Source: an uncultured Clostridia bacterium
Lineage (GTDB): Bacteria; Bacillota; Clostridia; TANB77; CAG-465
DNA length: 33,417 nucleotides
Assembly: GCA_947631415.1 (NCBI GenBank)
Contig: CANRLG010000012.1
Location: 1-33,417, forward strand
Direction: 5' to 3'
Part shown: positions 3,060 to 31,779 of the stretch, piece by piece
How the letters are laid out: every line of letters begins with the position of its first letter
How positions within the stretch are numbered: the first letter of the stretch is position 1
Program-made: the position numbers and the translations under genes
The notes under the pieces: generated by a model
The model's database searches: none
What the model saw: the letters and a program-made list of their open reading frames with translations, nothing else
Told to the model about the DNA's origin: nothing

Positions 3060-3085
3060 ACTTATCTCCTCATATAGTATTCTAA

Positions 3086-3114: not shown

Positions 3115-3146
3115 CGAATTATAAAATCACAATATATTATAAATAT

Positions 3147-3175: not shown

Positions 3176-3200
3176 ACACTATATAAAAAGAGGGATATAA

Positions 3201-4277: not shown

Positions 4278-4303
4278 TTTAATACTTAGGTGCTCTTTTT
4301 TAT
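4266..4303 (+). terminator. Terminator between GT2-GtrA and the convergent methyltransferase gene, likely bidirectional
   Basis: Arms 4266-4277 and 4286-4297 pair over 12 bp with one mismatch around an 8-nt loop, followed by a T run on the plus strand. Read on the minus strand the hairpin is followed by TTCTTTTT, so it can also end the methyltransferase transcript. The left arm includes the stop codon of the GT2-GtrA gene. Confidence 0.8.
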
Positions 4304-4314
4304 TTATAATATAA

Positions 4315-5184
4315 TTAAAATTCACAAATTGTAGTAATACCACAAGGTAGAAATATCTCAGAATTTTTTTGTTTTAGACCTATTTCATCAAAAGATATCT
4401 TCATATTATTTCTTTTTATAGCAAAATTTAATGCATTTTCAATAACAGTTCCAGATAAACCACCAGTATATGTATTTACCATAATAAATAAAGGATTATC
4501 AGATAATAGTTCATTACATAGTTCAAGTAATTCATATATATTATTTTCTATTGTCCATACTTCTCCATTTTTTCCTCTACCATAAGATGGTGGATCCATT
4601 ATAATTGCATCATATTTATTTCCACGTCTTATCTCTCGCTTTACAAATTTTAATACATCATCAACTAGAAATCTTACTGTTCTATCTTGTAAATTACTAG
4701 ATATTACATTTTCTTTTGCCCAGTTTACCATTCCTTGTGATGAATCTACATGGACTACTTCTGCTCCTGCATACGCACAAGCTACACTTGCTCCACCAGT
4801 ATAAGCAAATAAATTTAATACCTTAATTTTTCTTCCTTTTTTAGTTTCTTTTGAAATTGCATTTATCATATAATCCCAGTTTACAGCTTGTTCTGGAAAT
4901 AGTCCTGTATGTTTAAATCCCATTGGTTTTAAATTAAATGTCAAATCTTTGTAATTAATACTCCAACTATCTTTCATTGCCTTTAATTTTTCCCAATGTC
5001 CTCCACCATTACTACTTCTTATATATCTTGCATGAGCTCTTTTCCATTCCTTTGGATTTGTCTTTGTTGTCCAAACAATTTGAGGGTCTGGCCTAATTAG
5101 TATATACTCTCCCCATCTTTCAAGTTTTTCACCATTTGCCATATCTAGTAATTCATACTCATCTAAATATTTACTATAACGCAT
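4315..5184 (-). CDS. Class I SAM-dependent methyltransferase, RlmI/RlmK-like
   Basis: A 289-aa Rossmann-fold methyltransferase. SAM-binding motif I is VLNLFAYTGG (122-131), the acidic motif II is at VHVDSS (144-149), and the catalytic-type motif IV is DPPSYGRG (197-204). The FAYTGG plus DPPS(Y/F) combination is characteristic of the 23S rRNA cytosine-C5 methyltransferase group (RlmI-like, Methyltrans_SAM), but the N-terminal PUA domain of full RlmI is absent, so the RNA substrate is uncertain. The RBS is AAGGAG. A -10 TATAAT on the minus strand (5206-5211) sits just upstream and overlaps the start region of the divergent ylbJ gene. Its last seven codons and stop are duplicated at 1111-1133. 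Confidence 0.75.
   Translation of the reverse strand: MRYSKYLDEYELLDMANGEKLERWGEYILIRPDPQIVWTTKTNPKEWKRAHARYIRSSNGGGHWEKLKAMKDSWSINYKDLTFNLKPMGFKHTGLFPEQAVNWDYMINAISKETKKGRKIKVLNLFAYTGGASVACAYAGAEVVHVDSSQGMVNWAKENVISSNLQDRTVRFLVDDVLKFVKREIRRGNKYDAIIMDPPSYGRGKNGEVWTIENNIYELLELCNELLSDNPLFIMVNTYTGGLSGTVIENALNFAIKRNNMKISFDEIGLKQKNSEIFLPCGITTICEF
4316..4339. repeat. Right copy of 24-bp direct repeat (methyltransferase 3' end)
   Basis: Contains the last codons of the methyltransferase gene (ITTICEF and most of the stop codon). Matches 1112-1135 at 23 of 24 positions, same orientation. The two copies bracket the divergent membrane-protein/GT2-GtrA pair. Confidence 0.6.
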
Positions 5185-10586: not shown

Positions 10587-10612
10587 TCTTTTTTCCCTCC
10601 TTATATTAATTA

Positions 10613-10744
10613 TTAATATTTATTAACTAATTCCTTTAAAGAATTTATAAACTCCATATGAGCATCTAGTTCTAATTCATCTTCAAATGGTTTAACCACT
10701 TCCTCAAGTTCATTAAATTTTGCTTGAATTTCTTCAACTGTCAT
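10613..10744 (-). CDS. Small 43-aa acidic helical protein
   Basis: A 43-codon frame with ATG at 10744, preceded by a near-perfect AGGAGGAGATATT ribosome binding site and a good promoter at 10778-10806. The stop is TAA at 10613-10615. The product begins MTVEEIQAKFNELEEVV and ends SLKELVNKY: amphipathic, acidic, probably two short helices, no membrane segment and no Cys. I recognise no family. It is the first gene of an operon with the 751-aa coiled-coil protein, 26 bp downstream. The quality of the RBS and promoter makes it a real gene rather than a leader artefact. It could be a partner or regulator of the large protein. Confidence 0.75.
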   Translation of the reverse strand: MTVEEIQAKFNELEEVVKPFEDELELDAHMEFINSLKELVNKY

Positions 10745-10777
10745 AATATCTCCTCCTATACATTATATTTCAAAAAA

Positions 10778-10806
10778 ATTATATAGTAAAAAAAATATAA
10801 AGTCAA
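10778..10806 (-). promoter_or_regulatory. Promoter of the 43-aa/751-aa operon
   Basis: TTGACT (10806-10801), 17 bp, TATAAT (10783-10778), 33 bp before the ATG. The -35 box is embedded in the downstream arm of the galE terminator hairpin. Confidence 0.7.
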
Positions 10807-10821
10807 TAAAAAATTGACTTT
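10788..10821 (-). terminator. Terminator of galE and the 13-gene polysaccharide operon
   Basis: Arms 10821-10813 (AAAGTCAAT) and 10807-10799 (ATTGACTTT) form a 9-bp stem with a five-T loop, followed after ATA by eight T. It lies 27 bp beyond the galE stop codon. Confidence 0.7.
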
Positions 10822-10848
10822 ATGTAACATAACTATCATATATGTAAT

Positions 10849-11856
10849 TTATTTGTTATTTTTTTCAAAATTCCAAGCATCCTTGCACATATCTTCTAAT
10901 GTTTTAGTTGCGACAAATCCTAATTCTTCTTTTGCTTTCTTAGGGTCTGCATAACATTGTGCTATATCTCCAGGTCTTCTTGGTGCTATCTTATATGGAA
11001 TAGTAATATTATTTGCTTTTTCAAATGCTTTTACCATATCTAAAACACTATATCCTGTTCCAGTACCTAAATTATATATGTGCATTCCTTTTCCATCTTT
11101 ATTCAATTTTTCTAGTGCTTTAACATGTCCTTTTGCAAGGTCAACTACGTGAATATAATCTCTTACACCAGTACCATCTTTAGTGTCATAATCATCACCA
11201 AATACAGAAAGTTGTTCTAATTTTCCTGCAGCTACCTTTTGAATATATGGCATTAAATTAGCAGGAATTCCATTTGGTGATTCACCAATTAATCCACTCT
11301 CATGTGCTCCAATTGGATTGAAGTATCTTAGTATTGCGATATTCCATTCATTATCTGATTTATATAAATCTTGAAGTATATTTTCAACCATTAATTTAGA
11401 TGTTCCATAAGGATTTGTTGTTCCACCAACTTTACTATCTTCTGTAATTGGTACAAATTCAGGGTCTCCATATACTGTAGCAGATGATGAAAATACTAGA
11501 GTTTTTACATTATGTTTTTTCATTTCATCTAATAATACTAATACTGTTGATACATTATTTGTATAATATTCAACTGGTTTTTGTACAGATTCTCCTACGG
11601 CTTTATATGCAGCAAAATCTATAACTGCACTAATTTCATTTTCAGTAAATATTTTTTCTAGGATATTTCTGTCAATCATATTTCCTTCATAAAGTTTAAT
11701 TTCTTTTCCAGTAATTTTTTTTACGTTTTCTAAAGCATCTGGTTTACTATTAGAAAAGTTGTCTAATACTACAATATCATAACCTGCATTTTGTAGTTCA
11801 ACACAAGTATGTGTGCCTATATAACCCGCACCACCTGTTACTAAAATTTTTTGCAT
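10849..11856 (-). CDS. galE: UDP-glucose 4-epimerase
   Basis: 335 aa, the usual GalE length. Extended SDR with the NAD+ loop GGAGYIG (8-14), LDNFSNS (31-37), the catalytic SSSATVYG (123-130) with Ser124/125, Tyr150 and Lys154 in YGTSK, and RYFNPIGAH, a GalE hallmark. It interconverts UDP-Glc and UDP-Gal, and some homologues also use the N-acetyl forms. As the last gene of the polysaccharide operon it most likely provides UDP-Gal (or UDP-GalNAc) to one of the upstream glycosyltransferases rather than serving galactose catabolism, since no galK or galT is present. The RBS is AAGGAGG. The 56-bp gap before it is among the longest in the operon. Confidence 0.92.
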
Positions 11857-13691: not shown

Positions 13692-14636
13692 CTATTTATC
13701 TATATTTATAGTTTTAGAGATAATATATTGTGGTCTTCCTTTACTTTCATCATAAATTCTTCCAATGTATTCAGAGATTATCCATAAAGATGTAAGTTGT
13801 ACACCTGAGAAGAAAGTAATGCATACCATAATAGATGTCCAACCTGCAGTAAGTCCATTAAATTTTAGTATGTATGCAAGTAATGCATATATCATAATTC
13901 CTATTGAAATTAATATACTTACAATTCCAAGCATACCAATTATTTTTAATGGTTTTGTTGAAAAGCTAATAATTCCATCAGAAGCTAGTTTTAACATTTT
14001 CTTTAGTGGATATTTTGTTTTTCCAGCAAATCTTTCTTTTCTTTCATATTCAAAAGCATATTGTTTATATCCTACCCAACTAAATAATCCTCTTAAAAAT
14101 TTATTATGTTCTGGTAATGAATTTATTGTTTCAACAACTTTTTTATCTACTAATCTGAAATCTCCAGTATCTTTAGGTATATCTACATCTGAGAAGAAAT
14201 TTAAAGTTTTATAAAACATCTTTGCTGTAAACAATTTAAAGAAAGATTCTCCATCTCTTTTCTTTCTTTTACCATATATTACTTCATATCCTTCTTCCCA
14301 TTTTTTTAACATATCTCCTATAAGCTCAGGTGGGTCTTGTAAATCTGCATCAATTATGCAAACTGCATCTCCTGTAACATATTTTAATCCAGCTGTTACT
14401 GCACATTGGTGTCCAAAATTTCTAGCAAAAGATATTACTTTTACATTTTTATCATCTTTTGCAATATCTTCTAATATTTCTAATGTTTTATCTTTACTAC
14501 CATCATTTACAAATACCATTTCATATTCATAATTTTCTAGTTCACTTAGAACTTTTTTCATTCTATTATAACATTCTCTTGCTACTTCTTCTTCATAATA
14601 CATAGGTATTACAACAGATATTTTTTTATCTTTCAT
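13692..14636 (-). CDS. GtrB-type polyprenyl-phosphate glycosyltransferase (GT2)
   Basis: 314 aa. GT2 domain (~5-225): VVIPMYYEEE, VNDGSKD (43-49), ARNFGHQCA and the metal-binding DADLQDPP (96-103), TGDFRLVD; then two membrane helices (~232-255 and 265-290). This is the GtrB/YkcC/ArnC layout: transfer of a hexose from a nucleotide sugar to undecaprenyl phosphate on the cytoplasmic face. It is followed upstream in the operon by GtrA and two GT-C proteins, which together form the three-part system used to decorate polysaccharides outside the membrane. The sugar is probably Glc, Gal or a derivative; the sequence does not fix it. RBS AAGGGGAG. Confidence 0.88.
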   Translation of the reverse strand: MKDKKISVVIPMYYEEEVARECYNRMKKVLSELENYEYEMVFVNDGSKDKTLEILEDIAKDDKNVKVISFARNFGHQCAVTAGLKYVTGDAVCIIDADLQDPPELIGDMLKKWEEGYEVIYGKRKKRDGESFFKLFTAKMFYKTLNFFSDVDIPKDTGDFRLVDKKVVETINSLPEHNKFLRGLFSWVGYKQYAFEYERKERFAGKTKYPLKKMLKLASDGIISFSTKPLKIIGMLGIVSILISIGIMIYALLAYILKFNGLTAGWTSIMVCITFFSGVQLTSLWIISEYIGRIYDESKGRPQYIISKTINIDK

Positions 14637-14663: not shown

Positions 14664-15080
14664 TTATTTATTATCTTTAAAAATAATAAATTTACTAAGT
14701 ACATAATTTACTATTATAACTATTACATTTGATATTATTTTTACAATTAAATCATTTATTCCCATTACATCAGCCATTACATACAATATAAGCATATCCA
14801 ATAATAATGAAAATACTCTTGCCATCATGAATTTAAAGCCCTCTTTAGCAACTATCTTTATAGATAAATCCTTACTATTAAAGACTATAAGTTTATTTGT
14901 TACAAAAGCAAAGATAACTGATAAAAGCCATGCTATCAAATTACTTATAAAAATGTCAACACCAAATAGTCTAGTAAATAAGATATAAGATACATAATTA
15001 ACTAATGTAGTTAAAACGCCAAATATTCCGTAATTTATTATCTCTTTGTACTTTATAAATAAATTTTTTATCTTGTCCAA
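14664..15080 (-). CDS. GtrA-family membrane protein (TTG start)
   Basis: 138 aa from the TTG at 15080, preceded by GAGGAGGGAGATAGG; the open frame reaches 16 codons further upstream but without an RBS. Four membrane helices, with NYGIFGVLTTLVNYVSY at the start and FVTNKLIVFNSKD in the middle, are the signature of the GtrA family, thought to flip undecaprenyl-phosphate-hexose to the outer leaflet. Partner of the GtrB-type transferase 27 bp downstream. Belongs with the GT-C genes encoded just upstream in the same operon. A short family member of normal length (110-150 aa). Confidence 0.85.
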   Translation of the reverse strand: MDKIKNLFIKYKEIINYGIFGVLTTLVNYVSYILFTRLFGVDIFISNLIAWLLSVIFAFVTNKLIVFNSKDLSIKIVAKEGFKFMMARVFSLLLDMLILYVMADVMGINDLIVKIISNVIVIIVNYVLSKFIIFKDNK

Positions 15081-15137
15081 CCTATCTCCCTCCTCTATTA
15101 CATTATAACACATTTTTTTTATTATCATAGTATTTTA

Positions 15138-16709
15138 TTATATATTATTACCTTCTGGTAACGACCTTTTTCTTTTTATTAATATATAATCGTAAAATTT
15201 ATCTATACCATAAAATTGAGCTAAAAGCATTATAGGTATAAAGTTTACAATATATCTAGAACGAGCCTCCCAAATAATTAAAAAGATTAATAAACCAAAT
15301 ATAGACATATTAGCTATAATATTAATTTTTTCTTTTAAATCATTTTCAAAATTCTTTTTGACTTTGTAATTTAATATAGATGATATAACCATAAATATTA
15401 ATATACCTAAATGTTGAATTTCTGCATAATACATATATATGTATGAATATTTTCCCTTGGCAAGTATAAATTCATGTTGAATTCCTTTTCTAACAGGATA
15501 TTTTCTTAATTTTTCAGGTGCATAGTATGTACCATCTCCCCATGTAAATACCATCTTAGAAATTTCAAATCTTACTAAATCGTGATTTCTAATTAAATTA
15601 GATAACCTTTCTTTAATAATTTTTACATTTTCTGCTTTTCTTACATCCTTTCCACCAGAAATTGAGTCTGTAAATCCATTATCTTCACCACTATATCCGC
15701 CAATCATAACTTCATTTTTATAATTTATTCCCATCATAATCCAGTGAGTATACGGAAATTCTAACTTATATTCAATATTTTTATCTCTAATATTTGATAA
15801 ATATTTGTTTTTTACCAAAATAAATAGTATCAATGATATTATAACAATAGTACCAATTTTAAAAATTTCTTTATATCTTACATACAATATTTCTACTAAA
15901 ATCATGGCAATAAAGATTATACTAACTGTTATTTTTATTTGCATTCCAATAAATAGTACAGTTCCTGCTAGTAATGCCAATAGTATATTTGTTTTTGAAA
16001 ATAATTTATCTTTATTAGCTTTTTTGTTAATCAATATAAATAAATATAACAATAATATTGGATATACCATAGTTAATGTATCAGTATAAAATATAGGTGC
16101 ATACGTATATATAGGTGTCATTAAACACATTAAAATTAATGCAAATATTGCTTTATTATATCCAAATATTTCTTTGACAGACTTATATAGAAAAAATATT
16201 GAAATATCAATAAAAAATATATTTAAAATAATTCCAATAATTGTATATGCTTCAATATGTATAAATCTAAATATATCAAATATAATTGTTAATAATACTG
16301 TTATTGCTATATTATTTGGATATTGATACAAATACCAGTCTTCTATTTTTGAAGATATATTCATATCAAAATTTGTAGCTAAATTATATACATATCCAAA
16401 ATCCCAACTAGGAATTACCATAAAAAAATATGAAAATAACAATTGCAATATGATAGTAATTCCAAATATTATACCTACAACTAATCTTTTATTTTTTATA
16501 TTTGCTTTACAAATTTTTTTATAAATAAAAATAATTCCAATAATATAACAAATAACTAAAGCAATTAAAATAAATGGATTATAATTATATACTTTACTTA
16601 CATTGCTATTAAAAATGGATTTATATATTATTACACAAAATATAAATGCAAAAAACAATTTAAATATTTTTATTAATACGTCATTTATTTCACATAATTT
16701 ATTTTTCAT
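15138..16709 (-). CDS. GT-C-type integral membrane glycosyltransferase (single domain)
   Basis: 523 aa, about 11-12 membrane helices. Motifs shared with the N-terminal half of the next gene: WDFG (102-105), YPNN (130-133), YTDT (208-211), FPYTHWIMMG (~328) and a DGT in the extracytoplasmic C-terminal part (WGDGTYY). An Asp after the first outer helices (D103) fits the GT-C catalytic position. It probably transfers a sugar from an undecaprenyl-phosphate donor, such as that made by the GtrB/GtrA pair downstream, onto the exported glycan. The start is uncertain in one respect: the ATG has no Shine-Dalgarno within 15 nt (the nearest, GAAAGGA, is about 24 nt away), although no other start fits. 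Confidence 0.7.
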   Translation of the reverse strand: MKNKLCEINDVLIKIFKLFFAFIFCVIIYKSIFNSNVSKVYNYNPFILIALVICYIIGIIFIYKKICKANIKNKRLVVGIIFGITIILQLLFSYFFMVIPSWDFGYVYNLATNFDMNISSKIEDWYLYQYPNNIAITVLLTIIFDIFRFIHIEAYTIIGIILNIFFIDISIFFLYKSVKEIFGYNKAIFALILMCLMTPIYTYAPIFYTDTLTMVYPILLLYLFILINKKANKDKLFSKTNILLALLAGTVLFIGMQIKITVSIIFIAMILVEILYVRYKEIFKIGTIVIISLILFILVKNKYLSNIRDKNIEYKLEFPYTHWIMMGINYKNEVMIGGYSGEDNGFTDSISGGKDVRKAENVKIIKERLSNLIRNHDLVRFEISKMVFTWGDGTYYAPEKLRKYPVRKGIQHEFILAKGKYSYIYMYYAEIQHLGILIFMVISSILNYKVKKNFENDLKEKINIIANMSIFGLLIFLIIWEARSRYIVNFIPIMLLAQFYGIDKFYDYILIKRKRSLPEGNNI

Positions 16710-16749: not shown

Positions 16750-19545
16750 TTATTCAATGCTCTTTATATCTTGATTTTTTTGTATATCTCTTAATGTATC
16801 CCAAGTAAATTTTGCAATAGCAATATATTCAACAACTGAAAATACTGCCATATAATCCCAATTAATTATAGTTGGTGCTAAAAAGCAGTAATAGCCGTAT
16901 ACAGCACACGTTATAAGTACAATTGGAAAATAATATGATTTTTTATATAGCATAACGTATATAACCGCAAGAATTTCTGCTAAAAAAGCGTATCTATCAT
17001 GCATTTTTGGTAAAAAGAATACTATAAGTATTGAATACAATAAAGATATTGGAATAATATTACTTTTTACATCAATATTTTTATATATAATATACATAGA
17101 TATTATACCTAACACAAATATGGTAAAAATTACACCAACTCCTGATTGATTTTCAAAAAATCTACCAAAAATATTATAAATATTAGTATAATTTAATGTA
17201 ATTTGCTCATACGAACCTGTTTGCTTAAAATATATAGATAAACAGTCTATCAAACTTCTGCCCTGAATTAGTGCTGGAAGACACATAATTACATTTACAG
17301 TAGGTATTATAAAAAAATGTAAGAAACTTATATTTTTCTTTTGTAAATAAAGTAAAATATAAACTGGTACTATAAATATAAATTGTAGTTTAAAGGCAAA
17401 GGCAATTCCTAAAAATAAAAATGATAGAAATACTTTATCTTTTTTTATTAAATATAAGCTAATTAATATAAATGATACATATATTGTGTCACATTGAGCC
17501 CATAAACTTGAATTCATTAAAACTGTTGGTAAAAACAAAATAATAGCAAATGTTAAACATGCTATAAATTTTGAATTCTCATTTTTTCCAAGAATTTCAT
17601 ATACTAATAATCCTGCAAAAATAGCACATACAAAATCAAAAATAATTGATACCACCTTAATAGAGATTAATGAACTAATTGGCAAGTATGTTAATATTGC
17701 AAGTATTGTTAAATATGGTACATTATAATCACCTATATTATTTTTTAAAGCACGTATTCCTCCCTGTTCTTTTATTTCATCAAACCATTTAGACAAAAAA
17801 TCACCATAATCACCAGATACATATTTCATCATAAGTACTCTTACTACAATAGCAAGTAATATAATTGCAACTAAAAATATTCTTTTCAAATTCTTTTTAT
17901 CTAAAATTTTGCTTTTTACAACGTTTTCTATATCATTTATTTTTGTATATAATTTTTCCACTTTTTTCTCCTTTAATTTCCACTCTTTAATTTTATAAAT
18001 TATATTTGATATGCTATATGTACTTAATACTATAAATATAGGTAAATAGTTCATAAGATATCTAGACCTAGATTCAAAAAGTAATATAAACATTATAATT
18101 CCTATAATAGATAGTTCCATAATATTTATATTTAAATTTTCTTTGTTAAATTTAAGTATTGAACCTATAACTATAGTTAGCAATATAACTCCCCAAATAG
18201 CTTGCATTATATATTTAGTTATATCATAATAATATTCTTTATCTATATATACAAATTTTTGAATAGCTTTTGCAACTGAATTTGAATAATATGGTTCTGA
18301 TGTATAAAAACTTCCCTCACAACCGTAAAAGAAAGTTCCATCAGATATAATATGTGCATATTTTCCAACTAAATATGACAAATATCCTTTAACTCCCATA
18401 TTACTAAGTCTTAATTTTACTTGATTTAAATTATATTCTTTCTTCGCTTCTATTCCGACTTGACTTGCTGTAGCATTTACATCATCATCATTATACTGTC
18501 CATAATATTTTCCTTCATAATCAACAGGTTTCATTCCCATCATTAAAAAATGTGTAAATGGAAAACTATTTTCTTCGTACTCTTGCTTAGAAATATATTT
18601 TCCTAATCTAACATTTTTGTATACTAAGAAAATTCCATAGACTAAAGCTACTACTATAATATAAATAAACATAAATTTAAGAAGTTTACTCATTAAATTT
18701 TTTATTAATTTTTTCTTTTCATTAGAATTTAAAAGACTATTAATAAATTCTACAATTTCCATAATGACAATAGCAATTAGTACTATTATATTAGTAGGTT
18801 TTACCAAAAAGCCAACTATAGTACAAAGTGCCATAAGAATTATATTCTTTTTATTACTATTTTCTTTATAACATAAGTAATAGTAGTATATTGCTATTGG
18901 AAATGCTAAAGATAATGTATCAGAATATACTACTCCTATATATGGGCTAAAAAATAAAAAAGTAAATGTTATAAACGTATTAATACAACTATATTTTTCC
19001 TCAATTATTTTTCTGCATACCTTGCTTATATATATGATTGCAAAGTCTACCATTAAGATATTAAAAATAATTGCAACTATTAAATAGTTATTGTAACTAA
19101 ATATTTTAGCTATTCTAAAAAGAATTTCTAAAATCATCAATAAAAATATATTGTTACTGTATCTTGAAAAATACCACTGAGAAGTGAAACTACCATTAGA
19201 TATGTCTTCAGCAGCTTCAAATACAACTCCACAATCCCATCCAATATTTCTTGATATTAAAACTCCAAACATCAGTTGTAACAATAAAACAATGCTAACA
19301 GCTACAACTTTTAAAATTTTCTTAGTTTTTTCTTTAATTTGAATTTTACTTTTCAGTTTGTAGACTGCTAACATGCATATTATATATATTATTGCATATA
19401 CAACTAATTTTATTCTTTTGTAGCTATGCAAGATATTATAGTTTAAAAAAAATATATTAAAAAAAGCAAAACCTAATAAAGCTAATATTAAAATTTTTAT
19501 AGATATATTTACAAACTTCTTTAAATACAACTTATTATTCTGCAT
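16750..19545 (-). CDS. Double GT-C membrane protein (paralogous domain plus COG5542-like domain)
   Basis: 931 aa, unusually long. Residues 1-~520 are a paralogue of the 523-aa neighbour: WDCG (103-106), YSNN (129-132), YSDT (207-210), FPFTHFLMMG, SDGTFF (401-406), ESRSRYL..YLP (491-502). A charged linker (~515-550) leads to a second polytopic domain (~553-931) with GDYGDFLSKW (578-587) in its first outer loop and SLWAQCDTIYVSF (680-692), resembling the Gpi18/COG5542 mannosyltransferase-like group. Both halves look complete, so one chain may add two residues outside the membrane. AGGAG RBS. No frameshift or stop separates the halves. Which sugars are used is unknown. Confidence 0.75.
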   Translation of the reverse strand: MQNNKLYLKKFVNISIKILILALLGFAFFNIFFLNYNILHSYKRIKLVVYAIIYIICMLAVYKLKSKIQIKEKTKKILKVVAVSIVLLLQLMFGVLISRNIGWDCGVVFEAAEDISNGSFTSQWYFSRYSNNIFLLMILEILFRIAKIFSYNNYLIVAIIFNILMVDFAIIYISKVCRKIIEEKYSCINTFITFTFLFFSPYIGVVYSDTLSLAFPIAIYYYYLCYKENSNKKNIILMALCTIVGFLVKPTNIIVLIAIVIMEIVEFINSLLNSNEKKKLIKNLMSKLLKFMFIYIIVVALVYGIFLVYKNVRLGKYISKQEYEENSFPFTHFLMMGMKPVDYEGKYYGQYNDDDVNATASQVGIEAKKEYNLNQVKLRLSNMGVKGYLSYLVGKYAHIISDGTFFYGCEGSFYTSEPYYSNSVAKAIQKFVYIDKEYYYDITKYIMQAIWGVILLTIVIGSILKFNKENLNINIMELSIIGIIMFILLFESRSRYLMNYLPIFIVLSTYSISNIIYKIKEWKLKEKKVEKLYTKINDIENVVKSKILDKKNLKRIFLVAIILLAIVVRVLMMKYVSGDYGDFLSKWFDEIKEQGGIRALKNNIGDYNVPYLTILAILTYLPISSLISIKVVSIIFDFVCAIFAGLLVYEILGKNENSKFIACLTFAIILFLPTVLMNSSLWAQCDTIYVSFILISLYLIKKDKVFLSFLFLGIAFAFKLQFIFIVPVYILLYLQKKNISFLHFFIIPTVNVIMCLPALIQGRSLIDCLSIYFKQTGSYEQITLNYTNIYNIFGRFFENQSGVGVIFTIFVLGIISMYIIYKNIDVKSNIIPISLLYSILIVFFLPKMHDRYAFLAEILAVIYVMLYKKSYYFPIVLITCAVYGYYCFLAPTIINWDYMAVFSVVEYIAIAKFTWDTLRDIQKNQDIKSIE

Positions 19546-23328: not shown

Positions 23329-25026
23329 TTACTTTTTAAAAAGTCCTTTTAAGATATATTTTGGTTTTTTACTATTTTTTATTTCTTTTTCAAGACTATC
23401 TACATGTTCTTGCCATTTAATATTAGTTTTTTCAACATCTTTTAATAATCGTTCAAATTTTCCCTTTTCATTTTCAACTTCTTGCTTAATTCCTTCGATT
23501 GTTGTTAAAGCATTATATGTTTTCTCATAAATTTGAGCTATTTCTTTATTTAAAAGTTTTTCTTGAATTGTAGAGTCTAATTTTTCAAAAACATCTATAA
23601 AATCAGTAATTCCAAATTCATTATATAAATCTTCTTGTTTTATATATTTTGATATTTTAGAATTTTTCTTATATAAAACATTTATTGACCTATATAATAT
23701 AAATTCTACTGGTGCATTTTTTTCATTCCATTCTTGGTCATAAACAATAAACTTCTCAAATTCATTATTTTCATTTATATCAATAAAAACATTTTCAAAT
23801 GTTAAATCGAAAAGACAATCAGTTAAAAAATGCATTTTTTCTTTTAGATTATTGTCTACTATTATACCATATTTTTCGAAAATATTAACATTTTTCATTG
23901 TTTTTTCACAAAACATACACATTGAGCTACTATATATTATTTCATACCATTTTTTTATCAATATTTTAATTAAATCTATATTTTCTTGAGAAACAAGTTC
24001 ACCAATATATTCATTAAAAGTTTTAAGTGTTTGATATTTACTAATTACCTTATTATTTTCTATACTATCAGCTGTATTTATATTGCATTTTTTCAAAATT
24101 TCAATATTTTCTTCAATTTTTTTTATATGGTTTAGTCCTTCTTCAAATATTGCTTCTTTTTGGACATATCCATCATACATTTTGGTAATTAGCTTATTTT
24201 CTTTGTTTCTGAAGTTATTATAACTTGCAAATTTTACCCTTGAAAAATTTTCATCACTATTAGAAACTTCCAATAAGTATGAATTAGAAAAATAGTCTAA
24301 CATTCCATCTTTCACTATTTCTCTTATAGCTTCCATTTCATTAAAAATAATTGTATCATTTGGATTATAATATACTAAATAAGCTAATTTACTATTATTA
24401 TCATTAGGTAAATATTTATCTGAATACACTATACTTGGTAGTTTATGGTCAGGAAACGGATAATAAAAATTATATTTTTCAAATTTTGATTCATTTAATA
24501 TTTTTATTATTTCATTTTTAGAGTAAATTGCAGTGCTCTTTTCTTTTCCAAGAAGAACATCATAACTATTTCCTCCGTTATATGTTGCTCCAGAAAAGTT
24601 TTTAATTGAAAACTTATTTGCTACTGAAAACAATATAATTCCAGAATTATTTAAAATATTGTATGATAGTTCTAAGAACTGTTTTAATGTGGATTTTCCT
24701 ACCTTTATAAAGTCTTTTAGTCTATTCATTGCCTCCATGATGATTATATAATCAAATTTCTTTCCACATTGACTAGAAAAAAGTGTTAAGTCTTGATTAA
24801 CCTTTTCTAGATTTTCTCTATCTTCAATTGTTTCTAGTAATTGTTTATCTACATCTAAAACTGTTACCTTATTATCATTTTTAAATAAACATTCATAAAC
24901 ATCACTACCAATAAAAAGAATATTAGCTTTCTCTTTAAAGTCATACCAATTAATTATATTTTCCCTAATATCACTTTTTTTTATAAAATTATCTAAATTT
25001 AATACATTTTCTTCATTGTTAGGCAT
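23329..25026 (-). CDS. Methyltransferase-like / kinase-like / coiled-coil protein, candidate chain terminator
   Basis: 565 aa from the ATG at 25026, because the ATG five codons earlier is part of the GGGAGGTAAA RBS. Residues ~20-215: Rossmann methyltransferase-like, with NILFIGSD at motif I (glycine loop degenerate), LDVD (57-60), FDYIIIMEAMNRL and SVANKFSIKNFSG, then FYYPFPDHKLP (187-197), a signature I associate with SAM methyltransferases of polysaccharide clusters. Residues ~260-455 look kinase-like: YVQKEA (Lys290), a catalytic-loop-like FDLTFEN with Asp407 and Asn412 in the D(x)4N spacing, and VYDQEW (Asp430). Residues ~495-552 form a coiled coil, then a basic tail. The order matches E. 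coli WbdD. It sits 22 bp after the Wzt-like gene. Confidence 0.6.
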   Translation of the reverse strand: MPNNEENVLNLDNFIKKSDIRENIINWYDFKEKANILFIGSDVYECLFKNDNKVTVLDVDKQLLETIEDRENLEKVNQDLTLFSSQCGKKFDYIIIMEAMNRLKDFIKVGKSTLKQFLELSYNILNNSGIILFSVANKFSIKNFSGATYNGGNSYDVLLGKEKSTAIYSKNEIIKILNESKFEKYNFYYPFPDHKLPSIVYSDKYLPNDNNSKLAYLVYYNPNDTIIFNEMEAIREIVKDGMLDYFSNSYLLEVSNSDENFSRVKFASYNNFRNKENKLITKMYDGYVQKEAIFEEGLNHIKKIEENIEILKKCNINTADSIENNKVISKYQTLKTFNEYIGELVSQENIDLIKILIKKWYEIIYSSSMCMFCEKTMKNVNIFEKYGIIVDNNLKEKMHFLTDCLFDLTFENVFIDINENNEFEKFIVYDQEWNEKNAPVEFILYRSINVLYKKNSKISKYIKQEDLYNEFGITDFIDVFEKLDSTIQEKLLNKEIAQIYEKTYNALTTIEGIKQEVENEKGKFERLLKDVEKTNIKWQEHVDSLEKEIKNSKKPKYILKGLFKK

Positions 25027-25048
25027 AAATTTACCTCCCATTATTCAT

Positions 25049-26380
25049 TTATTTTTTTTCAAAAGTAATATTTGAATCTAATCTTATAAAACCTACCACT
25101 TCTTTAGTAGATAAAATCTCTACTAATAGTGCATCATATTTTCTATTTAAAACTTCTAATTCACCATTTGAATTTATATGTGTACAACTAAATGACAACG
25201 TATATTTTCCAGGTCCTAATTTAATTTTTTGTTTAAATGTAACCTCAACTATATCCCCTTTTTTGAAATTTCCTGTATCTACATTTTCTAAAAGTGTATT
25301 TGTACCACACATCTCTAATCCCTTAAAGTCTTTTATTGTCATAGTAAATATTGGAGAATCAATATCTTCATTAAATTGTATCCTAGATTTTAAATATACA
25401 TCTTTATCGTTTTCTATTGAAGATAAATAATGTCCTTTTTCATCAAAAATACCATAATCAAAAACTTCAGCTTTTCCGTTTCCATAAGTTATAACTTTAT
25501 CATTTTGAATCATGTGTTCTTTCCAAGTTTCATTTTCAGGGTCATCAATTATTTTAAATTGACTGTCTTCTAATTCTACATTATCTTCAATTTCTTCTGT
25601 TTCTTTTTCAATCTCATTTTGCTTTTTTAATTCATTAGGTTTTAACCCAACTATTATTTTTTTATATAACTCAACTCCATCTTTTACACTTCCATCAAAT
25701 ATTTTTGTTCCAGCATCAATTATTATAGTTCTAGTACAATTTCTCAATATATCAGAGATGTTATGTGTAACAAAAAGTATTGTTTTTCCTTTTTTCTTAA
25801 ATTCTTCAAATTTTTTAAAACATTTTAGTTGGAATGACATATCTCCAACAGACAATACTTCATCTACAATTAAAATATCTGGTTCTACATTTATAGCACA
25901 AGCAAAGGCAAGTCGTGCAAACATTCCTGATGAATAAGTCTTTACTGGTTGACTTAAATGTTCACCTATATCTGCAAATTCTATTATTTCTTTTTCTTTC
26001 TCTTTTATTTCTTCATTTGTTAAGCCCATTACTTGTCCGTGTTGATATATATTTTCATATCCTGTAAGTTCTGCATTAAACGCAGCTCCAAGTTCCAATA
26101 AAGAACTAATTTTTCCATTAACATTAAGTTTTCCACTAGTTGGAGTTACAACTCCCGTAATCATCTTTAATAGCGTAGACTTTCCTGCACCGTTTTTTCC
26201 AAGAACTCCTAATATTTCTCCTTTTTTAACTGTAAATGATACATCATTCATAGCTCTAAAAGTTTTATGTTTTTTGTATCCTGGAATTAAACTTTCAAAC
26301 AATCTATCTTTTTTGCTATCAAACATTTTATATTCTTTAACTAAGTTTTCAACAACTATAACATTATCTTTATCCATCAA
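25049..26380 (-). CDS. wzt: ABC transporter ATPase with C-terminal carbohydrate-binding-like domain (Wzt/TagH/RgpD)
   Basis: 443 aa. ATPase domain (~5-245): Walker A GKNGAGKST (61-69), signature YSSGMFARLAFA (149-160), Walker B ILIVDEVLS (169-177), H-loop His206. This is the polysaccharide-exporting ABC-2 subgroup (DEVLSVGD). An acidic linker (~250-290) leads to a beta-rich C-terminal domain (~295-443) with YGNGKAEVFDYGIFDEKG and GPGKYTLSF, like Wzt_C, which in E. coli O9a reads the modified end of the glycan. Start ambiguous: TTG at 26380 is 10 nt from GAGG, while ATG at 26377 is 13 nt away. Partner of the Wzm-like permease two genes upstream, with a GT2 gene between them. Confidence 0.88.
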   Translation of the reverse strand: MMDKDNVIVVENLVKEYKMFDSKKDRLFESLIPGYKKHKTFRAMNDVSFTVKKGEILGVLGKNGAGKSTLLKMITGVVTPTSGKLNVNGKISSLLELGAAFNAELTGYENIYQHGQVMGLTNEEIKEKEKEIIEFADIGEHLSQPVKTYSSGMFARLAFACAINVEPDILIVDEVLSVGDMSFQLKCFKKFEEFKKKGKTILFVTHNISDILRNCTRTIIIDAGTKIFDGSVKDGVELYKKIIVGLKPNELKKQNEIEKETEEIEDNVELEDSQFKIIDDPENETWKEHMIQNDKVITYGNGKAEVFDYGIFDEKGHYLSSIENDKDVYLKSRIQFNEDIDSPIFTMTIKDFKGLEMCGTNTLLENVDTGNFKKGDIVEVTFKQKIKLGPGKYTLSFSCTHINSNGELEVLNRKYDALLVEILSTKEVVGFIRLDSNITFEKK

Positions 26381-27376: not shown

Positions 27377-28171
27377 CTATAGCACATCTGCAAAGTCTTT
27401 TTTAGATTTTTTGAAAACTGTATTTCCCCATATAAATAATACTATTGTTACACACCAAAATACTATAGTATATCTAGCATTTGCTTCTGTTACAATATTT
27501 GAATTATTAATAAAAGCATCTCTAAATCCTGTTACCAAATAAGTTAAAGGTAAACACTTTGAACCAATTAACAAAGTATTATGACCTTCTAGCATATTTA
27601 AATTCCAAATTACAGGAGTAAGCCAAAAAAACAACTGCATCATAACGCTTAATAATTGAACGACATCTGGTATTAGAGTTGCTAATGCAGATGTTAACCT
27701 AGACATAGCTACAATAAATGCTATGGCACATATTGCCATATATAATACTTGTAAAAAATTTCCAATATATCCAAACCCTGCGCACACTGCAGTTGCAACA
27801 GCAAATAGGAATATTCCAATAATACTAGATGATGATAGTGATATTAATGGAATTATATCCACTGGAAAAACTACTTTTTTAACTAAATACGAATAAGAGC
27901 GTATTGAGTTACTTGCAGTAAGAATTGCATCATTTAAAAAAGTCCACATTGCCATTCCTGGTAAATACCAAACTATAAATGGGTCATTTCCTGCACTTTT
28001 AGTTTTTAATATATATTGAAATACAATTACATACATTGCCATAAATATGAAAGGTTGTATAAATCCCCATATAGCACCAAGACTTGTCCCAGCAAATCTA
28101 TTTTTAAAATCACTTTTACCAAGTCTAAATATCATCTTTCTATTTTTTATTATTTCTTTAACAAATTCCAT
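27377..28171 (-). CDS. wzm: ABC-2 polysaccharide exporter permease (Wzm/TagG/RgpC)
   Basis: 264 aa from the ATG at 28171, which follows GAGGAGATGTGC; the frame is open 20 codons further upstream, but that part overlaps the promoter -10. An amphipathic N-terminal helix (VKEIIKNRKMIFRLGKSDFKNRFAGTSLG) precedes six membrane helices with GAIWGFIQPFIFMAMYVIVFQ, WYLPGMAMWTF and FWLTPVIWNL, all typical of the ABC2_membrane family that exports lipid-linked teichoic acids, rhamnans and O antigens. First gene of the 13-gene operon. Forms the channel energised by the Wzt-like ATPase. Confidence 0.9.
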   Translation of the reverse strand: MEFVKEIIKNRKMIFRLGKSDFKNRFAGTSLGAIWGFIQPFIFMAMYVIVFQYILKTKSAGNDPFIVWYLPGMAMWTFLNDAILTASNSIRSYSYLVKKVVFPVDIIPLISLSSSSIIGIFLFAVATAVCAGFGYIGNFLQVLYMAICAIAFIVAMSRLTSALATLIPDVVQLLSVMMQLFFWLTPVIWNLNMLEGHNTLLIGSKCLPLTYLVTGFRDAFINNSNIVTEANARYTIVFWCVTIVLFIWGNTVFKKSKKDFADVL

Positions 28172-28199
28172 GCACATCTCCTCTTTTTTACACAAAGAA

Positions 28200-28228
28200 A
28201 TTATACCATTAACATTATCAAATTTCAA
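28200..28228 (-). promoter_or_regulatory. Promoter of the 13-gene polysaccharide operon
   Basis: TTGAAA (28228-28223), exactly 17 bp, TATAAT (28205-28200), 28 bp before the permease ATG. The only convincing promoter I find between here and galE. The rest of the 212-bp gap 28172-28383 holds the terminator of the preceding operon and AT-rich sequence without a gene. Confidence 0.75.
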
Positions 28229-28321
28229 CAAAGCTAATTACTAAAATATAAAAGAGCTTCAAGATAATTTATAATCATTTTTTAGTATTTTTTCTCTGTT
28301 TAAAAAAATATTTTCTATTTT

Positions 28322-28383: not shown

Positions 28384-29355
28384 TTACTTATCTAAATATT
28401 CAGGATGTTCCAAATACCAATCAATTGTCTTTACTATTCCATCTTTAAACATAGTATGTGGTTCCCATCCAAATTCTTCTCTTGTCTTACTTGGATCTAT
28501 TGCGTATCTAAAGTCATGACCTTTTCTGTCTTCTACATGTTGTATTAATGTTTCTGGTTTTCCCAGTCTTTCAAGAATTAATTTTACAATTTCAATATTT
28601 CTTTTTTCGTTGTGTCCACCAATACAATATCTTTCGCCTTTTCTACCTTTGTGTAAAACAATGTCTATTGCTTCACAGTGGTCATCAACAAATAACCAAT
28701 CTCTAATATTTAAACCTTCTCCATAAACAGTTAAAGGTTTATCTTGTACTGCAAGCGAAATCATATGTGGTATTAATTTTTCATGATGTTGATTTGGTCC
28801 ATAGTTATTTGAACAGTTTGTAACTGATACATTCATTTTAAATGTTTCAGCATACGCAAAAGCAATTAAATCTGAAGATGCTTTTGAAGCTGAATATGGA
28901 CTATTTGACTTAATAGGTGAAGTTTCACTAAAGTATCCTTCATCTCCTAAAGAACCAAATACTTCATCTGTTGAAACATGTACAAATTTATTTTCTGAAC
29001 CTTCTCCCCACACTTGCTTACAAGCTTCAAGTAATGCATGAGTTCCAAGTACATTTGTTTCAGTAAAAGTAAGAGGTCTTTTTATACTATTATCTACGTG
29101 GGACTCAGCAGCAAAATGAACTACTGCATCAATATTATATTTTTTTAAAGTTTCAATATTTTGTTCTAAATCGCAGATATCTCCTTTAACAAAGATATAT
29201 TTTCCTTCACTTGGTTTTAAATTTTCCATATTTGCTGCGTAAGTTAATTTATCATATACAACGTAAGTATATTTATCTCCATATTTTCTAACCATTAAAT
29301 TTACAAAATTAGAACCAATAAATCCAGCTCCACCTGTTATTAAAATGTTTTTCAT
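28384..29355 (-). CDS. rmlB: dTDP-glucose 4,6-dehydratase
   Basis: 323 aa. NAD+ loop GGAGFIG (8-14); catalytic STDEVFG (128-134) with Thr129, Asp130 and Glu131; the SDR pair Tyr154 and Lys158 in YSASK; NCSNNYGPNQ and RDWLFVDDHC are RmlB hallmarks. It converts dTDP-glucose to dTDP-4-keto-6-deoxyglucose, step 2 of dTDP-L-rhamnose synthesis. Slightly shorter than E. coli RmlB (361 aa) but all catalytic parts are present. Last gene of the five-gene operon, 12 bp from rmlC. Confidence 0.95.
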   Translation of the reverse strand: MKNILITGGAGFIGSNFVNLMVRKYGDKYTYVVYDKLTYAANMENLKPSEGKYIFVKGDICDLEQNIETLKKYNIDAVVHFAAESHVDNSIKRPLTFTETNVLGTHALLEACKQVWGEGSENKFVHVSTDEVFGSLGDEGYFSETSPIKSNSPYSASKASSDLIAFAYAETFKMNVSVTNCSNNYGPNQHHEKLIPHMISLAVQDKPLTVYGEGLNIRDWLFVDDHCEAIDIVLHKGRKGERYCIGGHNEKRNIEIVKLILERLGKPETLIQHVEDRKGHDFRYAIDPSKTREEFGWEPHTMFKDGIVKTIDWYLEHPEYLDK

Positions 29356-29367
29356 TATTATTCCTCC

Positions 29368-29949
29368 CTATTTTAGATCCTTAAATAAATCTGTTTGACT
29401 TAATTCTTTAAGTGATGGCCATTTTCCATCTTTTTCTGAAGTTAGCAATTCACTTTTATCTATTCCATCCATTGGCCATGCAATATTTACATCTGGGTCA
29501 TCCCATTTTAAGCCACCTTCTGCTTCATGATTATATATATCATCGCATTTATATACAAATTCTGCCTCGTCTGATACAACTAAAAATCCATGAGCAAATC
29601 CACGTGGAATCATAAACATTTTCTTATTTTCCTCTGTAAGCATAACGCCTTCATATTTTCCATAAGTCTTACTTCCAGGTCTTAAATCTACAGCTACATC
29701 ATATACTGCACCTTTAATTACTCTTACAAGTTTTGCTTGTGAATTTTGTTTTTGGAAGTGAAGTCCTCTAAGTACACCTTTTCTAGATTTTGATTGATTA
29801 TCTTGCACAAATTTATTAGTTATTCCAATTTCTGCAAATTCTGCTTCACTATATGTTTCCATGAAGTATCCTCTTTCATCTCCAAAAACTGTTGGTTCAA
29901 TTACATATACTCCTTCTATTGATGTTTCATTCTTTTTAAATTTTCCCAT
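29368..29949 (-). CDS. rmlC: dTDP-4-dehydrorhamnose 3,5-epimerase
   Basis: 193 aa, a normal size. Cupin fold with FGDERGYFMETY (22-33), the substrate-binding VLRGLHFQ (59-66) with catalytic His64, KLVRVIKGAVYDVAVDLR, IPRGFAHGF (114-122) and Tyr133. Carries out the double epimerisation at C3 and C5 in dTDP-L-rhamnose synthesis. It lies between rmlA and rmlB. RBS AAGGAAGGAGC. Confidence 0.95.
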   Translation of the reverse strand: MGKFKKNETSIEGVYVIEPTVFGDERGYFMETYSEAEFAEIGITNKFVQDNQSKSRKGVLRGLHFQKQNSQAKLVRVIKGAVYDVAVDLRPGSKTYGKYEGVMLTEENKKMFMIPRGFAHGFLVVSDEAEFVYKCDDIYNHEAEGGLKWDDPDVNIAWPMDGIDKSELLTSEKDGKWPSLKELSQTDLFKDLK

Positions 29950-29973
29950 CTTTATAATAGCTCCTTCCTTGCC

Positions 29974-30915
29974 CTATTTACCTATTTCTCTTGGTCCTTC
30001 ATTTTGAATAAAATCTATTGAGTCTAGTACATCTTCATAGTAATCATAATCATGCTCCAATAATTTGTACATATATCTTCCATAATCTGTTTTACCATGT
30101 TTTTCAGCCAAAGTTATTAACTGATTATCTGTAATCCAGTTATTTTTATATGCAATTTCCTCAATACATCCTATTTGAATACCTTGTCTAATTTCGATAG
30201 CTTTCACAAAATCTGATGCATCATTTAATCTATCTGCTGTACCTGTATCAAACCAAGCAAATCCGTTACCGAGTGGTATTACCTTAAGTTTTCCTTGTTC
30301 CATATATGTTTTATTTACATCTGTAATTTCAAGTTCTCCTCTAGCAGATGGTTGAATTTTCTTAGCAATTTCAACAACTGAATTATCATAAAAATATAAT
30401 CCTGGTACGGCTAAATTAGATTTAGGGTAATTAGGTTTTTCTTCAATAGATAACGCATTACCTTTTTCATCTATTTCAACAACGCCATAAGAAGTTGGGT
30501 CTGCTACTTTATATCCAAATATTATTCCACCTTCTTTTAATTTACTTGCTTGCTTTAATACTTTTTCAACTCCAGGTCCATAAATCATGTTATCTCCAAG
30601 AATTAAACAAACACTATCATTTCCAATAAAATCTTCTCCAACTCTAAAAGCATCTGCAAGTCCTACTGGTTTCTCTTGAATTTTATATTCAATTTTCATT
30701 CCAAGTGAACTTCCATCACCAAGTAAAGCTTGAAATACTGGTAAATGCATAGGTGTAGATATAATTAGCACCTCTTTAATTCCAGCAAGCATTAATGTAG
30801 ATAATGGATAATAAATCATTGGTTTGTCATAAACTGGTAATAGTTGTTTTGAAACAGCTATTGTTATAGGATAAAGTCTAGTTCCACTTCCTCCTGCAAG
30901 TATAATACCTTTCAT
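29974..30915 (-). CDS. rmlA: Glucose-1-phosphate thymidylyltransferase
   Basis: 313 aa. Nucleotide-binding GGSGTRLYP (8-16), SKQLLPVYDKPMIYYP, LILGDNMIYGPG with the metal-binding Asp, and EEKP..PKSN..VPGLYFYDN; all are RmlA signatures. Joins dTTP and glucose-1-phosphate into dTDP-glucose, the first committed step towards dTDP-rhamnose and normally the feedback-controlled one. About 20 aa longer than the common 290-aa form, owing to a C-terminal extension ending in GPREIGK. It begins 3 bp after rmlD. Confidence 0.95.
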   Translation of the reverse strand: MKGIILAGGSGTRLYPITIAVSKQLLPVYDKPMIYYPLSTLMLAGIKEVLIISTPMHLPVFQALLGDGSSLGMKIEYKIQEKPVGLADAFRVGEDFIGNDSVCLILGDNMIYGPGVEKVLKQASKLKEGGIIFGYKVADPTSYGVVEIDEKGNALSIEEKPNYPKSNLAVPGLYFYDNSVVEIAKKIQPSARGELEITDVNKTYMEQGKLKVIPLGNGFAWFDTGTADRLNDASDFVKAIEIRQGIQIGCIEEIAYKNNWITDNQLITLAEKHGKTDYGRYMYKLLEHDYDYYEDVLDSIDFIQNEGPREIGK

Positions 30916-30918
30916 AAA

Positions 30919-31779
30919 TTATTCCCCCTTTAGATATTCTTTTACAGCATCAACATAATTTGTTGGATATATTCCGACACTGTGTAATTTTTCTTTTGAA
31001 AGTTTTGAGTTAAACGGTCTATCACTTGATTGTGGATACATAGCTTTATATTGTTCAGATGTAATAGGTTTAACTTTTGTTTTTATACCTTTTATATCAT
31101 AAAATTGTGTAGTAAATTCATACCAAGTTGTAAATCCCTCATTTGTTGAATGATATATTCCGTATTCTGGTTCTTTTTCCATTATTTGTTCTATTATTTC
31201 ACAAAGAGTTGTTGTAGATGTAGGAGATCCATGTTGGTCACATACAACTGTAACTTCATCACGAGTCTGTGAAGCATTTAACATAGTTCTAACAAAGTTT
31301 TTACCTTGTCCATATAGCCAAGCAGTTCTTAATATATAATATTTTTCTGCTTTTTTAGCATTTTCCTCTCCCATAAGTTTTGTTTTTCCGTACGCACTTA
31401 CTGGATTTGGAATCATATCTTCTGTATATGCTTTTTCTACATCTAATTTGCCATCAAAAACGTAATCTGTACTAATTTGTATTAGAGTAGCTCCAACTTC
31501 TTTAGCAGCTTCAGATAAATTTCCAACTGCAATTCCGTTTACAGCTTCTGCTAAATCATAATTAGTTTCGCAACCATCAACATTTGTATAAGCAGCACAA
31601 TTAATTATGAAATATGGTTTTTCTGCATTAACTTTAGTTTTAACAGCTTCTAAATCTGTTATATCTAAAGTTTGCAATGTAGTTGAAACCACTTCATATT
31701 TATCTGTATAAGAAGTTAATCTGCTACACAATTCGCTTCCTAACATTCCATCTTGACCTACTAATAAAACTTTTTTCAT
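30919..31779 (-). CDS. rmlD: dTDP-4-dehydrorhamnose reductase
   Basis: 286 aa. NADPH loop GQDGMLG (8-14), INCAAYTNVDGCE (59-71), STDYVFDG (103-110), catalytic Tyr130 and Lys134 in YGKTK, and RTAWLYGQGKNFV. It reduces the 4-keto group to give dTDP-L-rhamnose, the last step. Second gene of the operon, 15 bp after the mutase gene, with AAGGAGG as RBS. Confidence 0.95.
   Translation of the reverse strand: MKKVLLVGQDGMLGSELCSRLTSYTDKYEVVSTTLQTLDITDLEAVKTKVNAEKPYFIINCAAYTNVDGCETNYDLAEAVNGIAVGNLSEAAKEVGATLIQISTDYVFDGKLDVEKAYTEDMIPNPVSAYGKTKLMGEENAKKAEKYYILRTAWLYGQGKNFVRTMLNASQTRDEVTVVCDQHGSPTSTTTLCEIIEQIMEKEPEYGIYHSTNEGFTTWYEFTTQFYDIKGIKTKVKPITSEQYKAMYPQSSDRPFNSKLSKEKLHSVGIYPTNYVDAVKEYLKGE

Follow-up and report, generated by a model that had tools for sequence, protein, structure and literature searches.

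A conserved fusion of two predicted GT-C glycosyltransferase domains of different types in an uncultured Clostridia bacterium

Can two different sugar-transferring domains, joined in one membrane protein, serve one and the same product? The question is raised by a 931-amino-acid (aa) protein encoded on contig CANRLG010000012.1 of an uncultured Clostridia bacterium (GenBank assembly GCA_947631415.1), of which the whole stretch analysed, positions 1 to 33,417, is called the window below. To our knowledge, GT-C enzymes have one active site per chain; some of them work as pairs of chains. An original prediction, made from the sequence alone, had seen two complete GT-C domains in this protein, and our analyses support that view: the reading frame is open, the predicted structures of both halves have the GT-C fold, and a second genome carries the same fusion. 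Each half is a complete GT-C domain, and the two differ in type.

Results

Two GT-C domains in one reading frame

The reading frame of the fusion, on the minus strand, starts with ATG 15 bases after a gene with a double GT2 domain and runs uninterrupted to its end, 40 bases before the gene of a separate 523-aa GT-C protein; the plus-strand frame over the same positions has 90 stops. A search of the genome (G000; 1.58 Mb in 76 contigs, 91.9% complete) finds one copy of the fusion and the 523-aa paralogue, with no further match at E<=0.001. The motifs quoted in the original prediction were all located in their respective halves of the translation: GWDCG, YSNN, YSDT, FPFTHFLMMG and DGTF in the N half, and GDYGDFLSKW and WAQCDTIYVSF in the C half. 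A Pfam scan of the whole chain gave no family at E<=1, a search of the PDB with its single sequence returned nothing at E<=1, and residues 629-744 had a weak NCBIfam match to AZOBR_p60025 (15.7 bits, cut-off 150).

Modelled alone, each half gave a confident structure with the GT-C fold. The model of the N domain (predicted local distance difference test, pLDDT, 82.3; predicted template modelling score, pTM, 0.88) aligns best with ArnT (5f15) over model residues 73-515 (VIA-align Z 20.8, 309 aligned, root-mean-square deviation, rmsd, 3.5); the top 46 rows are all GT-C-fold chains, and the next, RodA-PBP2, has a Z of 3.8. Two extra helices (7-34 and 44-67) precede the core matched to ArnT. Plain Foldseek gave no match for this model at E<=0.001 (best AglB at 2.0e-3 and ArnT at 4.4e-3), and a PDB search with an N-domain profile found three unrelated chains at E 0.88 to 6.6. 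By its sequence, the N half, whose family had been left unnamed, seems to be of the TIGR03766/PMT_2 kind, below the TIGR03766 cut-off: against a cut-off of 500 bits the fusion scores 191.5, its orthologue in the second genome (G021, described below) 205 and the 523-aa neighbour 63, the matches of the N domain and the neighbour covering nearly the whole length of the model. Against PF13231 PMT_2 (gathering threshold 26.1), the G021 orthologue scores 32.9 bits and the neighbour 23.1, and the fusion of the window has no match.

The model of the C domain (pLDDT 84.2, pTM 0.86) aligns best with ALG6 (6snh; Z 28.1, 365 aligned, rmsd 3.1), and also with ALG3 (Z 26.6), GPI mannosyltransferase I (25.9), PimE (22.0) and ArnT (19.1); its top 45 rows are all GT-C-fold chains, the non-enzymatic homologue PIG-U included. 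Plain Foldseek gave two matches at E<=0.001, and a profile search with the C half reached GPI mannosyltransferase 1 at E 8.8e-07. The C half alone scores 23.5 bits with GT87 (PF09594), below the gathering threshold of 25, and none of the scanned members of this ALG6/PimE-like family reached a curated cut-off for the domain.

The residues expected to be catalytic are conserved in both domain families, as counted over 38 N-type and 37 C-type domains with a profile score of at least 100 bits and a span of more than 330 positions, after a redundancy filter (row L021 was kept in this count). In the N-type rows, D104 is conserved in 37 of the 37 with a letter, D209 and R495 in 37 of 38 each, and Y207, G349, K395, G482 and E491 are invariant in all rows with a letter (37 or 38). 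In the C-type rows, D579 is found in 36 of the 36 with a letter and H849 in 35 of 37, and W587, Y607, Q684, D686, K719, Q721, R851 and Y852 are invariant in all rows with a letter (36 or 37). Both domains have an acidic residue directly past the first core helix (D104 and D579). The catalytic base of PimE is D58, with Q163, K195 and H321/H322 in the active site (PMC12041525); D49, Q154, K189 and H319 of the C half, in its own numbering, have approximately the same spacing, which is a likeness of spacing and not a residue-level superposition. Because the catalytic Asp follows the first core helix in each half, and the linker between the halves is rich in lysine, the linker is predicted to lie inside and both active sites outside.

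A second species with the same fusion

An assembly or sequencing error as the cause of the fusion is ruled out by a second species: contig CANQVI010000002.1 (uncultured Clostridia bacterium, isolate Lapin-033; G021) carries an unbroken 936-aa orthologue, without stops and 58% identical over its whole length, in a locus collinear with the window from phosphomannomutase to GalE, fusion included. The original prediction was to fall if relatives had the two halves as separate genes and a sequencing error had joined them here; separate genes do occur in relatives (G474 and G491, below), but the error does not apply, as G021 is fused too.

The two halves have diverged to different degrees. The N half is 44-46% identical to that of G021 and the C half 76%; in bins of 40 residues, identity ranges from 0.28 to 0.70 in the N half and from 0.65 to 0.95 in the C half from residue 561, with 0.45 over the last 11 residues. 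In this respect the N half resembles the variable genes of the locus (the double GT2s at 51% and 60%, the methyltransferase-like gene at 33% and the 523-aa paralogue at 60%), and the C half is more like the genes that have changed less (Wzm at 79%, GtrA at 82%, Wzt at 87% and the PgfS-like GT2 at 91%).

At the domain junction of the window, GTG 529, preceded by AAAGGAG at a distance of six bases, could serve as an internal start from which a free C domain would be made. A similar ribosome site precedes seven of the 349 internal start codons in 24 open reading frames of the window, GTG 529 included, and a slightly wider pattern is found before 11 of the 24 assigned starts. The G021 orthologue has no ATG, GTG or TTG from residue 508 to Met576, which lies beyond the first helix of the C domain.

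A rare fusion among separate genes

The fusion is real, conserved and rare, and is found at full length in two genomes only: two of 36 genomes of the family (G000 and G021), one of 391 of the class (G000, among the matches listed) and one of 398 of the phylum (G000, at E<=1e-25). The class and phylum scans scored no more than two candidates in each genome, and the genome draws overlap. Among plasmid records 56 match the fusion and among phage records four, none of either covering 80% of the query. A candidate third fusion, in G031, was rejected: its match spans both halves by way of two stops, and consists of a 520-aa N-type gene and then a 513-aa gene unlike the C half. Another protein of G031 (L077, 4138-6843, 901 aa) has an N-terminal GtrA domain, its other 736 residues having no Pfam or GT-C profile match.

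Standalone homologues exist for each half, and separate genes are the common state. When 191 genomes of the order were searched with the C half, 14 matched: two fusions, one weak fragment (G177), eight free-standing genes (two of them, in G033 and G034, interrupted by a stop inside the matched stretch), and three genes with other attachments, lying behind a WecG/TagA domain (G068 and G066) or before a YkuD domain (G136). TIGR03766 matched 20 of these 191 genomes, none of them over the cut-off. In G474 the two families are encoded separately, in a tight row that runs from the N-type gene through a PgfS-like GT2 and the C-type gene to an epimerase (Table 1). G491 has a deep-branching N-type gene with a C-type gene 103 bases after it; in G321, the C-type gene comes right after rmlC and the N-type gene lies about 3.6 kb off on the opposite strand; in G352, the C-type gene is accompanied by a PgfS-like GT2, a GtrII-family protein and Wzt/Wzm.

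Other joined proteins and mobile relatives were seen on the way. The C family is joined to different partner domains, WecG/TagA/CpsF in L069 (G068, 8653-10590) and L071 (G066, 2160-4136) and YkuD in L070 (G136, 9776-11470). In G103 (L078, 8188-10317, minus strand), a 709-aa protein unites an N-type GT-C with a GtrA flippase and adjoins a PgfS-like GT2. The open frame of 986 aa in G123 (L079, 9868-12828, plus strand) would be a sugar transferase joined to a polymer exporter, with a TIGR03766-type GT-C (1-497), an extension of about 220 aa and an ABC2_membrane domain (734-943), followed by a Wzt gene; the extension is common to two G120 proteins (49% and 37% identity). Four records filed as phage (PQ520410.1, OR846642.1, MT838568.1 and OR846596.1, three of them Enterococcus) carry N-type relatives of 25-28% identity. 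The 9.9-kb Weissella koreensis plasmid NZ_CP026849.1 (L127) has a C-type gene (3309-4481, 36% identity), after which come a 505-aa protein without clear family and an acyltransferase.

History of the fusion

The N half and the 523-aa neighbour are 28% identical over 463 columns (E 8e-32), far beyond chance, and the original prediction had derived the gene from a tandem duplication, one copy of which then fused to a different GT-C type. The domain-wise phylogeny speaks against the duplication. In a tree of 38 N domains, the fused pair belongs to a nine-row clade (100/99) with G103, G525, G485, G321, G385, G474 and G265, the rows of G525 and G485 being flagged as long branches, and the 523-aa neighbour and its G021 counterpart lie outside it. 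A constraint joining the four paralogue rows of the window and G021, which is the grouping of the original prediction, changes the log-likelihood by -50.8 units and is rejected by the approximately unbiased (AU) test (p-AU 0.00078); the tree had been inspected before that test. Both results reject a recent duplication of the 523-aa neighbour as the source of the N half, and the two look like old paralogues standing side by side. With the duplication rejected, the fusion would have joined two GT-C types that were already distinct, and it is this part of the earlier explanation that stands.

The tree of C domains, built from 36 rows without L021, places the C domains of the two fusions as sisters (100/100). 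The N and C trees, both unrooted and drawn from rows selected as for the residue counts, fit one fusion event, and, because separate genes are the common state, we infer that these are ancestral. A joint alignment of both halves was set aside: N-only rows were shifted onto the C half.

Gene neighbourhood

In the order of transcription, the window holds a phosphomannomutase-like gene (best NCBIfam match PgmG, 405 bits against 600), rmlD, rmlA, rmlC and rmlB, Wzm, a GT2, Wzt, a protein with a weak methyltransferase match, two double-GT2 genes, the fusion, the 523-aa gene, GtrA, the PgfS-like GT2, a polysaccharide deacetylase, a GT2 and GalE (Table 1). Synthase, flippase and GT-C genes lie on one strand in one gene run, the gene set of transmembrane glycosylation. 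A genome-wide search with the PgfS-like GT2 at E<=1e-10 finds this gene alone, and the genome has two GtrA domains, that of the free GtrA and that of a GT2-GtrA protein (3201-4277).

Three further proteins of the window deserve mention. A DUF6077 membrane protein (1191-3179) is divergent from the GT2-GtrA fusion, and the two probably make up a second transmembrane glycosylation set. The methyltransferase-like protein (23329-25041, 570 aa), with weak methyltransferase and coiled-coil matches, lies near the Wzt with its Wzt_C domain, is 33% identical to its G021 counterpart and is perhaps a chain-end enzyme. A 751-aa protein (8331-10586) has no Pfam or NCBIfam match and resembles the G021 protein in the same place in its middle part only (28%).

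Table 1. Positions of the fusion, its parts and associated genes (in the window unless L110 is given)
Feature	Position	Strand	Basis
931-aa fused protein, two predicted GT-C domains	16750..19545, stop codon included	-	open frame; full-length 936-aa G021 orthologue
N domain, residues 1-530, TIGR03766/PMT_2-type GT-C	17956..19545	-	TIGR03766 191.5 bits; model against ArnT 5f15
C domain, residues 531-931, ALG6/GPI-mannosyltransferase/PimE-like GT-C, weak GT87	16753..17955	-	PF09594 23.5 bits; ALG6 6snh
Asp104, predicted catalytic residue of N domain (GWDCG, just past first core helix)	19234..19236	-	conserved 37/37
Asp579, predicted catalytic base of C domain (SGDYGDF)	17809..17811	-	conserved 36/36; place like PimE D58
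Lysine-rich linker, residues 515-553, predicted cytoplasmic	17887..18003	-	12 K/R against 6 D/E
Possible internal GTG start, residue 529, AAAGGAG six bases upstream, at domain junction	17959..17981	-	sequence
523-aa neighbour, separate TIGR03766-type GT-C, N-domain paralogue	15138..16709	-	alignment and tree
GtrA-family putative flippase	14664..15128	-	PF04138 87.8 bits, cut-off 26.1
PgfS-like GT2, predicted undecaprenyl-phosphate-sugar synthase	13692..14636	-	NF047588 PgfS 332.7 bits, cut-off 500
GalE, UDP-glucose 4-epimerase	10849..11856	-	TIGR01179 457.9 bits, cut-off 262.3; G021 counterpart 87% identical
Wzt, ABC exporter ATPase with C-terminal Wzt_C	25049..26380	-	PF14524 120.4 bits, PF00005 85.2 bits
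Wzm-like ABC exporter permease	27377..28231	-	PF01061 49.4 bits (cut-off 26.9); NF050109 45 bits (cut-off 380)
rmlB, rmlC, rmlA, rmlD, dTDP-rhamnose synthesis	28384..31779	-	TIGR01181, TIGR01221, TIGR01207, TIGR01214 all above cut-off; G021 81-94% identical
G474 N-type gene, 428 aa	L110 8597-9883		
G474 PgfS-like GT2	L110 9903-10886		NF047588 233.3 bits, cut-off 500
G474 C-type gene	L110 10874-12067		
G474 epimerase	L110 12057-13142		

Discussion

We consider it somewhat probable, at about 0.58, that the fusion is an enzyme with two active sites, working in a system of transmembrane glycosylation whose target is a polymer that probably contains rhamnose and is exported by Wzm/Wzt. At the inner face of the membrane, the PgfS-like GT2 would transfer a sugar from its UDP form (glucose, galactose or an N-acetyl form) to undecaprenyl phosphate, galactose-type sugars being possible because GalE is present, and GtrA would carry the lipid-linked sugar to the outer face. 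There, in the ArnT/PMT-like N domain and the ALG6/PimE-like C domain alike, the Asp past the first core helix would activate an acceptor hydroxyl, and both domains would transfer sugars onto the polymer. Since the genome holds one close PgfS-like synthase, both domains are expected to act on the same donor, and would form from it two different linkages of one anomeric type, in a two-sugar side chain or at two branch points. According to the standard scheme, a C55-P-sugar is produced by a GT-A enzyme and brought outside by a flippase, often of the GtrA type, after which a GT-C enzyme transfers the sugar to a wall polymer (PMC8035078); inversion is a common feature of GT-C enzymes (PMC11754754), and side chains are added to O antigens after ABC-dependent export of the polymer (PMC11127046).

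This two-site reading builds on the fact that two species carry the fusion intact, on the folds of both halves, on the conserved residues, on the gene context and on the separate genes that lie with a synthase in G474. Since the neighbouring genes provide for synthesis of a lipid-linked sugar, its transfer across the membrane by GtrA and export by an ABC transporter, the fused protein can fairly be taken to act outside the membrane. We also count in favour that the best fold matches of both halves include enzymes dependent on lipid-phosphate sugars, and that an N-type GT-C is fused to GtrA in G103. The activity of each domain, the donor, the acceptor and the order of action are inferences. In its boldest form, the reading would make the protein the first single-chain enzyme with two working GT-C sites of different types, one undecaprenyl-phosphate sugar feeding both and the growing side chain being passed from site to site outside the membrane, the fast-changing N half setting a variable linkage and the conserved C half a constant one; we regard this as doubtful.

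Several observations weigh against the two-site reading. The GT2-GtrA protein could supply a different donor, and, with the genome 91.9% complete, the assembly may lack a further synthase. Neither half alone passes a curated family cut-off, and the GT-C fold can go without transferase activity, PIG-U ranking high among the matches. Given their unequal identity to G021, the halves need not share one constraint, and a free C domain could be made from GTG 529. Finally, the surroundings of C-type genes without a fused N domain were annotated in 26 cases (4 to 21 kb each), and only four of these neighbourhoods contain a gene that has the PgfS-like GT2 as its best match in the window: those in G071 (opposite strand), G474, G352 and G491 (24% identity).

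Three other explanations were weighed. Only one domain might transfer sugar, the other serving within the chain as its partner by binding the polymer or keeping a complex together, as PIG-U does in GPI transamidase. PIG-U chains occupy rows 4 to 6 of the C-domain matches, the 7WLD chain being PIG-U, contrasted with PimE (PMC12041525), and a review raises the speculation that the smaller GT-C enzymes may require a second protein to bind the acceptor (PMC8035078). A scaffold, however, would be free to lose the residues of the catalytic site, which both families have kept, and each half is also found in open frames without the other; we think the partner role unlikely. The lowest expectation falls on two proteins in practice, whether by a free C-type enzyme from GTG 529 or by an accident of assembly: the AAAGGAG ahead of this codon and the separate genes of relatives would agree with it, but such sites also precede other internal start codons, and G021 is fused too, without a start codon at the junction. 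We give this next to no weight.

The third explanation is protein O-glycosylation like that by the Pgf proteins of Streptococcus mutans, with the fusion as PgfM1, the 523-aa neighbour as PgfM2 and a surface protein, not a polysaccharide, as the target. The gene content recalls pgfS-pgfM1-pgfE-pgfM2: the window too combines GalE and two membrane proteins of the PMT_2/TIGR03766 type with a PgfS-like GT2, whose best NCBIfam match is indeed NF047588 PgfS. In both species, however, the Pgf-like genes sit inside a polysaccharide locus with Wzm/Wzt, rml and GT2 genes, and the GT2 stays below the NF047588 cut-off. Among the translations of the window no adhesin-like gene was noticed, though no search was aimed at adhesins, and PgfM1 is stated not to be a predicted enzyme (PMC5856776). 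A protein target is quite improbable in our view, and decoration of an exported polymer by two sites is the explanation we prefer.

The conserved fusion of two GT-C types, together with the separate genes that flank one lipid-sugar synthase in G474, is evidence that both families serve one product. The fusion offers a concrete way into how two transferases may share one undecaprenyl-linked sugar, and gives the ALG6/PimE-like C family a partner.

Folds, families and the glycosylation scheme are already known; among the open-licence PMC papers listed by our searches, in the parts available, none was seen to describe a single chain that combines two types of GT-C. The core fold of the N domain is like that of ArnT and the protein O-mannosyltransferases of the PMT_2 kind, but compared with ArnT it has two more N-terminal helices and an identity of 10-11%. 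Both the N domain and the 523-aa neighbour match the model of the XrtG-associated glycosyltransferase TIGR03766, below its cut-off. XrtG itself (TIGR03110) had no match in the genome of the window (91.9% complete), in a search in which none of the control genomes gave a match either; the XrtG search scores 200.2 bits on a Lactococcus plasmid that also carries TIGR03766. The C domain has the fold of GT87/PimE, ALG6 and GPI mannosyltransferase I and nearly the residue spacing of PimE, but is only 9-14% identical to them in structural alignments.

The Pgf operon of S. mutans (PgfS, PgfM1, PgfE and PgfM2) shares with the window a PgfS-like GT2, an epimerase and two related membrane proteins of unequal size, PgfM1 having 16 and PgfM2 10 predicted transmembrane segments, but reportedly modifies surface proteins and adjoins the adhesin gene cnm (PMC5856776). 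Should PgfM1 share the two-domain build, the fusion would be less novel. The Gtr systems, GtlA/GtcA/GtlB of Listeria and SccN/SccM and SccP/SccQ of S. mutans are alike in having a GT-A lipid-sugar synthase, a flippase and a GT-C enzyme acting on an exported polymer (PMC8035078, PMC11754754), the flippase of Listeria being of the GtrA type as in the window (PMC8035078). SccM and SccQ, two GT-C enzymes that decorate one rhamnan at two positions, are separate proteins, each with its own synthase (PMC11754754), whereas in the window a single chain combines two predicted GT-C types, with one PgfS-like synthase nearby.

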